From contig NZ_CP047409.1 in assembly GCF_013487865.1 (NCBI RefSeq), forward strand, positions 868,001 through 932,000: 64,000 nucleotides of DNA, in the 5' to 3' direction. The stretch comes from Lactobacillus johnsonii. GTDB lineage: Bacteria > Bacillota > Bacilli > Lactobacillales > Lactobacillaceae. The translations under genes and the position numbers were made by a program. A model generated the notes under the pieces. That model saw only the letters and a list, made by a program, of their open reading frames with translations. It did not search any database and was not told where the DNA came from. Positions 2,904-8,349 of the stretch are shown in pieces (position 1 is the first letter of the stretch; every line of letters starts with the position of its first letter).

Positions 2904-3006
2904 AAAAATCCCCCTCTAATATTATAGATTATTGTATAGAAACAAAAATCATGAGACAACATTTTTATGTTAAAATTTGATATCTTTAATTTTAGAAGGT
3001 GAAAAA

Positions 3007-3435
3007 ATGTTTGATAAAAAAGAAGCTCTTAAAAAATTAAATTATGAACAATATGAAGTTACACAACATGCAGCAACTGAAATGCCTTTTAGTGGAAAAT
3101 ATAACGATTTCAACCAAAAAGGAATTTATGTCGATGTAGTTTCTGGTGAACCACTTTTTTCAAGTCAAGATAAATATGATGCAGGCTGTGGTTGGCCGAG
3201 TTTTACGAAGCCAATAAAAAAATTAAGTTATAAACGGGATCAATCTCATGGAATGGAGCGAACAGAAGTGAAAAGCCCCATTGCTGATTCCCACTTAGGT
3301 CATGTTTTTACTGATGGACCAGTTGATCAGGGAGGCTTACGGTATTGTATTAATTCTGCTTCCTTAAAATTCATTCCATATGATAAGCTAGAAGAGGAAG
3401 GCTATAATCAATATAAAAAAATATTTGAGGAATAG
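3007..3435 (+). CDS. msrB: Peptide-methionine (R)-S-oxide reductase MsrB
   Basis: Reduces the R-epimer of methionine sulfoxide in oxidised proteins using thioredoxin. The 142-residue protein starts at ATG 3007, chosen because AGAAGGTG lies 6-13 nt upstream; an upstream in-frame ATG at 2977 has no such site. GCGWPSF near residue 60 and the catalytic cysteine in [11 protein letters not shown] (about residue 114) are the family signatures. The two CxxC zinc motifs of many MsrB proteins are absent, as in other zinc-free forms. It is followed almost directly by an SGNH hydrolase. MsrA is encoded 1.4 kb downstream, so both epimer-specific repair enzymes are close but not fused. Confidence 0.95.
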
Positions 3436-4724: not shown

Positions 4725-4834
4725 TAAGGGTAATTTCCATTAATAATATATATGAATGAATTAAAAGAAATAGGAACCTAAAAAGTACCACAATTTTGAT
4801 AAATATTGATTTTTTTAGAAAGTTAGTGAAAAGT

Positions 4835-5392
4835 ATGAAAGACGTTAAATCCCTTGATAACAATGAAAAAACGCAGTATGACACAGCTATCTTTGCTGGC
4901 GGTTGTTTCTGGTGCATGGTTGCTCCTTTCGATACATATCCTGGTGTCATAAAGGTCGAATCAGGTTATACCGGTGGAGTCGTGCCTAACCCTACTTACG
5001 AACAAGTTTGTACGGGATTAACTGGGCATACTGAGGCGGTTCGCATTACTTATGATCCAAATAAACTATCTTATGAGGATTTGGTTAATATTTATTGGCA
5101 AGTTACTGATCCAACTGATGCTATGGGACAGTTTCAAGATCGCGGCAGTCAATATCAACCAGTTATTTACTATAATTCACTTGAACAAAAAGAAATTGCT
5201 GAACAATCACGTAAATCTTTAGCAGATTCAAATAAGTTTTCAGATCCAATTGTAACCCGTATTGAACCAGCAAAGCCTTTCTATTTGGCTGAAGATTACC
5301 ATCAAGATTTTTATAAAAAAGATCCAGCTCGGTATGCTTTAGAAGAGGCCGGAGGGAGAGAACAATTTATCAAAAAACATTGGAAAAAATAG
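4835..5392 (+). CDS. msrA: Peptide-methionine (S)-S-oxide reductase MsrA
   Basis: Repairs the S-epimer of methionine sulfoxide. The family motif GCFWC lies at about residues 22-27 of the 185-residue form starting at ATG 4835; its first cysteine is the nucleophile. Conserved YxGG (SGYTGG), GHTEAV and the [18 protein letters not shown] block follow. The start is uncertain: a TTG at 4796 in the same frame would add 13 residues and neither start has a strong Shine-Dalgarno site. ATG 4835 gives the usual short N-terminus before GCFWC. No terminator hairpin is obvious directly after the gene. Confidence 0.93.
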
Positions 5393-6424: not shown

Positions 6425-7087
6425 ATGGAAAATCGTTTTAAAAGTGTTTTTGATATCATTGGTCCAGTTATGATTGGACCGTCTAGTTCACATACAGCTG
6501 GTGCAGTAGCAATTGGCAGAGAAGGAAACAAACTTTTTGGAGGAGTTCCTAAAAAGGTTACTGTTCATTATTATGGCTCTTTTGCTCAAACTCATCGTGG
6601 ACATGGTACTGATTATGCAATTGCAGCAGGAATTTTGGGCTTTACTACTTCTGACTTACGAGTACCAAAAGCCCCGGAGATTGCCCGTAAGCGCGGCATT
6701 GATATTAGGTTTGTAGAGGAAAAGGGAGAAAGCCCGATTCATCACCCAAATACGGCGATTTTAGATATGACTGACGGTCATAAAAAAGTTCAATTAGCAG
6801 GCTGTTCCATTGGTGGTGGGGCAATCGAAATTCGACGCCTAGTAATCCATGATATTGTGGTTGAGCCAAGCGGTACGTTACCAATTGTTTTATTGATTGA
6901 CCCAGAAAGAAAAATAAAAAATCAAAGATCCTTAACTTCCTTTTTACAACAAAAGGCACCTTTTAATGAAAGCAGAATTTATAAAAGCCCTGAATACTAC
7001 ATCTATGAATATGATATTCAAAACTATTTCAAGCTTTCTTTAATTGGAGAACTCAAGAAAAAATATAAAAACATTGTTTGTTTATGA
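6425..7087 (+). CDS. sdaAB: L-serine dehydratase, iron-sulfur type, beta subunit
   Basis: Beta chain of the two-subunit Fe-S L-serine ammonia-lyase (L-serine to pyruvate plus ammonia). The signature GPSSSHTAGAVAIG lies at about residues 18-31, and the C-terminal half has the ACT-like shape usual for this subunit. Its 220 residues match the family. The alpha subunit begins 12 bp downstream, so the pair is co-translated. Gram-positive serine dehydratases of this type carry no PLP and use a [4Fe-4S] cluster held by the alpha chain. Confidence 0.95.
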   Translation: MENRFKSVFDIIGPVMIGPSSSHTAGAVAIGREGNKLFGGVPKKVTVHYYGSFAQTHRGHGTDYAIAAGILGFTTSDLRVPKAPEIARKRGIDIRFVEEKGESPIHHPNTAILDMTDGHKKVQLAGCSIGGGAIEIRRLVIHDIVVEPSGTLPIVLLIDPERKIKNQRSLTSFLQQKAPFNESRIYKSPEYYIYEYDIQNYFKLSLIGELKKKYKNIVCL

Positions 7088-7099
7088 AATGAGAAACTA

Positions 7100-7981
7100 A
7101 TGTACAATCACGTTAAAGAAATTGTTGCAGACGCTGAAAAACAAGAAAAACCTATTTCAGAATTGATAATTGAACAAGAATGCAAATTATCAGGATTATC
7201 ACGAGAAAAAGTATGGAATAAAATGAAATATAATCTTGAAACCATGCGTGCTGCGGTTAGTGAGGGAAGTACTGGTAAAGGAGTATTTTCTCATACTGGC
7301 TTAACAGGTGGTGAAGCGATTAAAATAAAAAAATATCGTGAAAAAGGTCATACTCTTTCTGGTGATTTCATAATGGAAGCTGTGCAAAATGCAGTAGCAA
7401 CAAATGAAGTAAATGCTGCGATGGGCGTCATTTGTGCAACCCCAACAGCTGGCTCTTCTGGCACACTTCCAGGTATTTTATTTATGCTTGAAAAAAAGCT
7501 CGACTTAAATGAAGAACAAATGATTCGCTTTCTCTTTACTGCAGGAGGAATGGGATTAGTTATTGGAAATAATGCGGAAATTGCTGGGGCAACCGGCGGA
7601 TGCCAAGCAGAAGTCGGTTCAGCATCCGCAATGGGCGCAGCAGCGGCTGTAGAAATAGCTGGTGGTACGCCCGCGCAAAGCTCCCAAGCTTTAGCGATTG
7701 CGATGTCTAATTTATTGGGACTAGTATGTGATCCAATTGCGGGACTAGTAGAAGTACCCTGCGTAAAAAGAAATGCAATTGGAGCTGGAAACGCTCTAAT
7801 TGCAGCTGATATGGCATTAGCTGGATGTACTAGTGTTATCCCGGCTGATGAATGTATTGAAGCAATGAAAAAAGTAGGCCATCAAATGCCAGTAGCATTA
7901 AGAGAAACTGGTATTGGAGGATTAGCAGGCACTCCAACAGGACAGGCTATTAAGGCTAGAATTTTTGGAAAAGATGTTTAA
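7100..7981 (+). CDS. sdaAA: L-serine dehydratase, iron-sulfur type, alpha subunit
   Basis: Catalytic alpha chain of 293 residues. Three cysteines suited to bind the [4Fe-4S] cluster are C168 (GGCQAEVG), C210 (CDPIAG) and C221 (EVPCVKRN). Their spacing (42 and 11 residues) equals that of the cluster ligands I recall for the single-chain Legionella enzyme (C343, C385, C396). Other signatures are TPTAGSSGTLPG and a Gly/Ala-rich core. It follows sdaAB closely and is itself followed, with no real gap, by a DUF59/SufT-like gene that could supply or repair its cluster. Likely role: serine catabolism to pyruvate. Confidence 0.95.
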   Translation: MYNHVKEIVADAEKQEKPISELIIEQECKLSGLSREKVWNKMKYNLETMRAAVSEGSTGKGVFSHTGLTGGEAIKIKKYREKGHTLSGDFIMEAVQNAVATNEVNAAMGVICATPTAGSSGTLPGILFMLEKKLDLNEEQMIRFLFTAGGMGLVIGNNAEIAGATGGCQAEVGSASAMGAAAAVEIAGGTPAQSSQALAIAMSNLLGLVCDPIAGLVEVPCVKRNAIGAGNALIAADMALAGCTSVIPADECIEAMKKVGHQMPVALRETGIGGLAGTPTGQAIKARIFGKDV

Positions 7982-7982
7982 A

Positions 7983-8303
7983 ATGCGCACTAGTGAAGAA
8001 ATTAAACAAAATATTATTAATCAACTAGCAACTGTCATAGACCCGGAGTTAGGGGTAGATATTGTTAATCTAGGACTAGTTTACAAGCTTGACTTAGATG
8101 AAGATGGAATTTGTCTAATTAATATGACTTTAACCACTCCAGCTTGTCCTTTAACAGAAGTATTAATTGAATTAGTTAATGCTGCGGTTATGAAGGTTCC
8201 TGAAGTCAAAAATGTTGATGTTGAGTTCGTTTGGTACCCAGTTTGGAGTCCTGAGAAAATGAGTGATCAGGCTAAAAAACATTTTGGATATGATAAAAGA
8301 TAA
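7983..8303 (+). CDS. DUF59/MIP18-family (SufT-like) iron-sulfur assembly protein
   Basis: One-domain protein of 106 residues with the family core ATVIDPELGVDIVNLGLVYKL and the reactive-cysteine loop TTPACPLTE. Relatives (PaaD, SufT, MIP18/Fam96) act in maturation of Fe-S proteins. GGAAAAG inside the end of sdaAA precedes it. Start ATG 7983 gives the usual spacing; ATG 7974 or TTG 7965 in the same frame would overlap sdaAA. Position directly behind the [4Fe-4S] serine dehydratase suggests dedicated service to that enzyme, which is inference from context. Confidence 0.88.
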   Translation: MRTSEEIKQNIINQLATVIDPELGVDIVNLGLVYKLDLDEDGICLINMTLTTPACPLTEVLIELVNAAVMKVPEVKNVDVEFVWYPVWSPEKMSDQAKKHFGYDKR

Positions 8304-8312
8304 TAGAAGCAA

Positions 8313-8349
8313 AAAAAGATCTTTCAAAATTTAATGAAAGATCTTTTTA
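8313..8349. terminator. Bidirectional terminator after the serine dehydratase operon
   Basis: Thirteen-base perfect stem (8314-8326 with 8335-8347, AAAAGATCTTTCA/TGAAAGATCTTTT). The A run before and T run after serve both the sda operon and the convergent gene. Confidence 0.93.

Follow-up and report, generated by a model that had tools for sequence, protein, structure and literature searches.

SufT of S. aureus resembles the protein described here in its Pfam domain, in consisting of DUF59 alone and in a conserved cysteine, and it is an auxiliary factor in Fe-S maturation (PMC4982691). According to the available text of that report, loss of SufT lowers the activity of Fe-S enzymes, the protein has an accessory role for a number of Fe-S proteins but none in repair, and stress is laid on its single strictly conserved cysteine. 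It acts together with SUF and overlaps Nfu on several enzymes, whereas the gene studied here lies in the putative operon of a client and its type persists without SUF. In M. tuberculosis, the contacts of SufT with SufS, SufU and clients depend on its cysteine, and the available portion of the report judges binding of iron or of a cluster unlikely (PMC9045647); a 2021 review, in the excerpt at hand, describes the binding of clusters by SufT as elusive (PMC8593673). Human CIA2A and CIA2B, which also are DUF59 proteins, mature different subsets of Fe-S proteins (according to a title cited in PMC8593673), but they belong to a eukaryotic cytosolic pathway and have no operon linkage. The role of DUF59 has long been open, partly because the hosts studied also have SUF, Nfu and many clients.

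An arrangement apparently identical to ours has been described before. Among 1669 genomes, sufT was present in the absence of sufB, iscU and nifU in five, all of them lactobacilli, with sufT in an apparent operon with the anaerobic RNR activase or with serine dehydratase (Mashruwala et al. 2016, PMC4982691). As these operons were reported there, the core of the present finding is already known. The DUF59-DUF1858 architecture is also listed in that work. By contrast with those five lactobacilli, the genome studied here has SUF. The published account of them is brief, and neither a client-wise tree nor a co-occurrence test nor a functional test in lactobacilli was found in its available text. 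The present analysis adds counts of co-inheritance, a DUF59 tree that largely follows the clients, remnants of SUF, a small Fe-S inventory and a linkage of DUF59 to ilvD.

The window, that is, the whole stretch of 64,000 nucleotides of Lactobacillus johnsonii that was analysed, contains at 6425-8303 a tight three-gene unit, ordered 5′ to 3′ as sdaAB (beta), sdaAA (alpha) and a DUF59 gene (Table 1). The alpha and beta matches in adjacent genes, with PF03313 and PF03315 both over cut-off, correspond to a two-chain Fe-S L-serine dehydratase. With TIGR00718, sdaAA reaches 382.6 bits (cut-off 243.2), and with TIGR00719, sdaAB reaches 151.3 bits, just under the curated cut-off of 161.2. The original prediction that sdaAA and the DUF59 gene are separated by no usable gap is borne out, as the sdaAA stop occupies 7979-7981 and, after a single base, the DUF59 ATG follows at 7983. 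A longer DUF59 frame opens at TTG 7965, but this start is less likely because 16 of 16 aligned relatives have "MR" at the residue coded by 7983. The purine run inside the end of sdaAA is likely the ribosome-binding site of the DUF59 gene. The terminator scan gave two sites where shuffles gave 1.6 on average, so that the inverted repeat behind the unit is weak by itself, and the promoter scan, with 7 sites for a mean of 6.5, carries no information. The convergent gene on the 3′ side is presumably the PEP synthase regulatory gene. Two genes upstream of sdaAB lies msrA (4796-5392), and an msrB-like frame was seen by eye at 2977-3435. The neighbour names yitU, yitV, yitT, msrB, mntH, suf and PEP synthase regulator are for the most part our presumed assignments; Pfam matches support IlvD, SBF, hydrolase, HAD, MoaA, PMSR, Clp-type and radical-SAM representatives, as well as YitT and the nrd unit.

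Table 1. Features of the sda-DUF59 unit in the window, with related loci of other genomes in the last line.
Feature	Position	Strand	Remarks
sdaAB	6425..7087	+	L-serine dehydratase beta chain, 220 aa; SDH_beta PF03315 56.2 bits, cut-off 26
sdaAA	7100..7981	+	L-serine dehydratase alpha chain, 293 aa; SDH_alpha PF03313 265.2 bits
DUF59 (SufT-type) gene	7983..8303	+	106 aa, stop included in coordinates; PF01883 66.0 bits
Putative ribosome-binding site of DUF59 gene	7967..7973	+	Purine run GGAAAAG, by eye, 9 bases before ATG 7983
A/T-rich inverted repeat, terminator-like	8313..8348	.	Between DUF59 and convergent gene; 14-pair stem reported on minus strand
Codon of SdaAA Cys168, predicted [4Fe-4S] ligand	7601..7603	+	Cys in 4rqo alignment; Cys in 18/18 relatives
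Codon of SdaAA Cys210, predicted [4Fe-4S] ligand	7727..7729	+	Cys in 4rqo alignment; Cys in 18/18 relatives
Codon of SdaAA Cys221, predicted [4Fe-4S] ligand	7760..7762	+	Cys in 4rqo alignment; Cys in 18/18 relatives
Codon of DUF59 Cys44, second Cys of sda-linked copies	8112..8114	+	
Codon of DUF59 Cys55, Cys of Cys-Pro motif (Cys55-Pro56)	8145..8147	+	
ilvD-linked DUF59 loci			L202, L203, L205, L206, L209, L211, L212, L214, L219, L224, L226

The match of the third protein to PF01883 (DUF59 / FeS_assembly_P) covers all 73 positions and is well over the Pfam gathering cut-off of 23.5 bits; with NCBIfam TIGR02945 (SUF_assoc, the SufT equivalog) it obtains 104.7 bits, under the curated cut-off of 143.4. 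Its relatives in the PDB (1uwd, 3lno, 5ird and 2cu6) are solved DUF59-type chains. The gene, at C1:876 kb, is not co-located with sufBC, as the suf operon lies at about C1:1.072-1.076 Mb and has a DUF59 gene of its own; such co-location is, however, no strict criterion for SufT, because about half of the sufT genes are not found with sufBC (PMC4982691, available text). Cys55 is a cysteine in every row compared (27/27 sda, 10/10 suf, 29/29 nrd, 13/13 ilvD and 36/36 yitV). Cys44 is present in all 27 distinct sda-linked sequences and elsewhere in 8/10 suf, 21/36 yitV, 9/29 nrd and 3/13 ilvD rows, a distribution that is only suggestive of a special role.

In the dehydratase, Cys168, Cys210 and Cys221 had been expected to keep the 42/11 spacing of known cluster ligands. 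They do so, and each aligns with a cysteine of a solved L-serine dehydratase, PDB 4rqo, whose three cluster cysteines match those of the window SdaAA one to one; the relatives counted in Table 1 are the other Lactobacillus SdaAA sequences compared. The 4rqo enzyme, which we take to come from Legionella pneumophila, is a single chain of 476 residues, whereas the window enzyme has two chains. In the Legionella L-serine dehydratase, a C-terminal cysteine caps the cluster, and for this reason the tail of the beta chain might cap it in trans here. SdaAB ends in Cys-Leu (7079-7084); of 18 relatives, 14 share its Cys219, three have I or Y instead and one has a gap.

Linkage was surveyed in 61 Lactobacillus genomes, which are related to each other and 12 of which fall outside 90% completeness and 5% contamination. 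Of these genomes, 19 carry sdaAA (at 21 loci), 38 carry DUF59 and 22 have SUFBD. DUF59 lies directly downstream at 19 of the 21 sdaAA loci (18 genomes) and the other two are cut by contig ends, so that the expected linkage holds within the genus at 19/19 assessable loci. The recurrence of the same order at 19/21 loci indicates that the adjacency is more than chance. G191 was considered as a counter-example and rejected, as each of its two sdaAA copies is cut off by the edge of a contig (on C36, of 24,378 bases, sdaAA runs to 24,376, and the second copy, on C6, starts at base 3). The MAG G024, which is 57% complete, may be mixed, as its sda copy (L165) is nearly identical to the G215 copy. The reciprocal expectation, that genomes without sda also lack this gene, agrees with 41 of the 42 sda-negative Lactobacillus genomes, which have no sda-clade DUF59 (their other DUF59s were placed by the tree and three by position beside suf); physical linkage alone would suffice for such co-loss. 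The exception is the MAG G002, with an sda-clade DUF59 next to msrA on a 3.7 kb contig. In another genome (G189, locus L164), the sda-DUF59 unit lies about 1.8 kb from a complete, divergently oriented suf operon, with mntH-like frames between sufB and sufT, the only such proximity of sda and suf among the sda-bearing Lactobacillus genomes surveyed.

Across Lactobacillaceae, by contrast, the predicted linkage failed. In a sample of 151 genomes drawn evenly from the family, sdaAA was found in 41 (40 over the curated cut-off), all of which also have SUFBD and DUF59 matches; SUFBD occurs in 74 and DUF59 in 62 of the 110 genomes without sdaAA. The two genes are adjacent in only 5 of the 41 (G000, G077, G062, G045 and G117, where sdaAA is split into two frames), and a sixth genome, G150, has DUF59 2.2 kb from sda. 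A family-wide linkage is consequently rejected. In the remaining 35, DUF59 is absent near sda and present elsewhere in the genome, and thus a linked copy is not required for SdaA. The co-inheritance expected of a client-dedicated factor is found within Lactobacillus, but not as linkage throughout the family. In a separate protein scan, 15 of the best 80 of 313 DUF59 relatives are sda-linked, all in Lactobacillus or Limosilactobacillus records (several of these genomes also belong to the genus survey), and the other 65 of these best 80 have no sda gene in their flanks, which span at most 6 kb and less near the end of a contig. Frequent linkage of DUF59 to unrelated genes had been named as evidence against the proposal. 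Such linkage exists for DUF59 at large, since, of the 113 DUF59 rows that have neither sda nor nrd nor suf beside them, 57 have a YitV-type hydrolase and/or a YitU-type phosphatase in their vicinity (38 of the 113 lie near none of the eight reference genes tested), but not for the sda clade, where 24 of 26 rows are sda-linked.

This clade emerged from a tree of 165 DUF59 domains (105 columns; 38 of 161 inner branches open), which is largely client-wise. The main sda clade, with support of 97/96, contains two further rows linked to msrA; they form a sub-branch and lie directly behind msrA (L207, from G085, which has sda elsewhere, and L162, from G002, without sda). Separate from it is an nrd-linked group of 32 rows, 29 of them nrd-linked, and a third group holds 8 Lactobacillus suf-linked copies. 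The main sda clade groups with unlinked copies from Ligilactobacillus and Liquorilactobacillus, and from this position we infer that its ancestor was probably a general DUF59 whose gene came to lie behind that of its client. Three sda-linked copies fall outside the main clade: L170 (G206), L095 (G045) and L088 (G150). One single clade was not rejected by the AU test for L170 (p 0.196) or L095 (p 0.27). L170 looks mosaic, its N half being nearest the sda type (71%) and its C half nearest other types (68% vs 58%). L160, from G004, which is without sdaAA, groups with L095 outside the main clade.

Taking SdaA and NrdD as clients, and SUFBD together with NifU_N/SufU as an intact SUF (18/61 genomes), at least one client is present in 36 of the 61 Lactobacillus genomes. 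DUF59 accompanies the client in all but one of the 36 (35/36), against 3 of the 25 client-free genomes (Fisher 2e-12, with related genomes treated as independent). The exceptions are the MAG G219 (85% complete), with a client and without DUF59, and G002, G197 and G202, with DUF59 and without a client. Intact SUF, on the other hand, occurs in 17 of the 36 and in 1 of the 25, and DUF59 therefore tracks clients across the genus more closely than intact SUF does. In 19 genomes a client and DUF59 are present without intact SUF, and none of these 19 has a NifU_N match. In four of the genomes that keep sda-DUF59 there is no SUFBD match (G007, G014, G215 and G221), and in two (G205 and G209) the unit is intact and only SUF fragments are left. 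All six retain the three SdaA cysteines and both DUF59 cysteines. Between G007 and G215, dN/dS is 0.017 for DUF59 and 0.036 for SdaAA, which indicates purifying selection; other SUF-less pairs are dS-saturated or too similar. The decayed SUF operons of G209 (L161) and G205 (L163) have a fragmentary sufB and, in G209, a fragmentary sufC; G209 has kept a full-length sufT frame, whereas that of G205 is short, and in both genomes the intact sda-DUF59 lies elsewhere. The SUF fragments of L163 adjoin ppsr-, msrA- and yitT-like genes, and neighbours of these three kinds also flank the sda unit of the window.

The original premise that lactobacilli have few Fe-S proteins is supported for the families searched, in which the repertoire looks thin. 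Radical-SAM matches, found in 36/61 Lactobacillus genomes, consist of NrdG (mostly below the curated cut-off) and weak partial hits, with two strong extras only in G194; the EndIII cluster loop was found in 0/61, while 12 of 14 control genomes were positive. Lactobacillus is a stripped-down natural case, in which two Fe-S clients were recognised, each with its own DUF59.

In the genome of the window there are three DUF59 genes, one each beside suf (L084), nrdDG (L085) and sda, and each adjoins cluster machinery or an Fe-S client. The first is the last gene of the sufCDSUB operon. The second, at L085:2413-7177 (about C1:163-168 kb), is a DUF59-DUF1858 fusion that follows nrdD and the activase gene nrdG and precedes a DUF438-hemerythrin-PAS gene; this locus may be a client-specific maturation unit or an NO/O2-response unit for NrdG. 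The long, DUF1858-fused type is found in 33/61 Lactobacillus genomes, with nrdG directly upstream in 30 (29 fetched, and G077 by coordinates), and in G014, G206 and G221 it is kept apart from nrdDG.

The reading we favour, and hold to be rather probable, is that the window DUF59 serves SdaA as a dedicated maturation factor of the SufT type. Gene order, the linkage conserved through the genus, joint inheritance with the client, the retained cysteines, purifying selection and the survival of the unit in genomes without SUF are observed and speak for it. A single transcription unit would encode both chains of the [4Fe-4S] L-serine dehydratase together with a SufT-type factor of its own, and the DUF59 protein would be made together with SdaAA. 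It would dock on apo-SdaAA through the conserved Cys55 of its Cys-Pro motif and help the cluster into the Cys168/210/221 site. Where SUF is present, as in this genome, it would work downstream of it; in lactobacilli that have lost SUF it would still serve SdaA, the origin of the cluster being left unspecified.

That the protein is instead a general SufT which merely sits in the sda operon, is expressed when Fe-S demand rises and serves all Fe-S proteins without any choice of client seems to us rather unlikely. The breadth of S. aureus SufT (PMC4982691, available text) is consistent with such a role. So are the position of the sda clade beside unlinked copies and the two clade members found by msrA and not by sda (G085 and G002), as well as G062, where the sda-linked DUF59 is the only one found despite the presence of SUF and may therefore serve everything. 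Against it, the copies beside nrdG and beside suf are retained as DUF59 genes of their own in Lactobacillus, and 0/17 genomes with NrdD and without sdaAA have a main-sda-clade DUF59, two suf-adjacent copies in these 17 (both in G216) being placed by coordinates only.

Improbable, in our opinion, is a factor that protects or repairs oxidised clusters and does not deliver them. Proteins of the di-iron hemerythrin type are tied to cluster repair, and the nrd-linked, DUF1858-fused copy is followed by such a gene; msrA, moreover, lies near the unit in the window and next to DUF59 in G085 and G002. However, msrA was not found near the sda operon in the other Lactobacillus species examined, msrA and yitT occurring within 6 kb only at johnsonii-like sda loci. 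The repair role that the original prediction had admitted beside delivery is further weakened by S. aureus, where, in the available text, SufT left the rates of aconitase damage and reactivation unchanged (PMC4982691). Least of all do we believe in neutral hitch-hiking, by which the adjacency would be an inherited accident without any functional bond. The main clade could trace to a single joining event, and 7 sda loci share one upstream neighbour family, so that part of the sample reflects simple shared descent. Yet the surroundings of the triple differ from one species group to another and the triple itself is preserved: across the genus its flanks fall into several sets, johnsonii-like loci having yitT and the PEP synthase regulator in common and other loci having flanks unique in the sample. 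The strong purifying selection and the sda-linked copies outside the main clade (G045 and G206, even if a single origin was not rejected for them) also argue against an accident.

With the client-dedicated factor retained as the preferred reading, a bolder extension concerns the lineages that have lost SUF and show no scaffold of the SufU/IscU type. There, the client-linked DUF59, with Cys44 and Cys55, might be the last dedicated assembly factor and might build or insert the [4Fe-4S] cluster from free iron and sulfide with no scaffold complex, one protein for one client; we regard this as quite doubtful. A lineage without known scaffold is here one in which the searches, made for SUFBD_core and NifU_N, gave no intact SUFBD_core and no NifU_N. 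Under this definition, the 19 of 36 client-bearing Lactobacillus genomes without an intact SUF operon offer a chance to see DUF59 work without a known scaffold.

Finally, DUF59 was also observed beside ilvD in other Lactobacillaceae, and no title among the matches listed in the literature search concerned this neighbourhood. IlvD is an Fe-S dihydroxyacid dehydratase and would represent a further client type. A bile-acid-symporter-like gene is often near. Thirteen DUF59 rows lie by ilvD, 12 of which come from 42 hand-picked frames (loci in Table 1).
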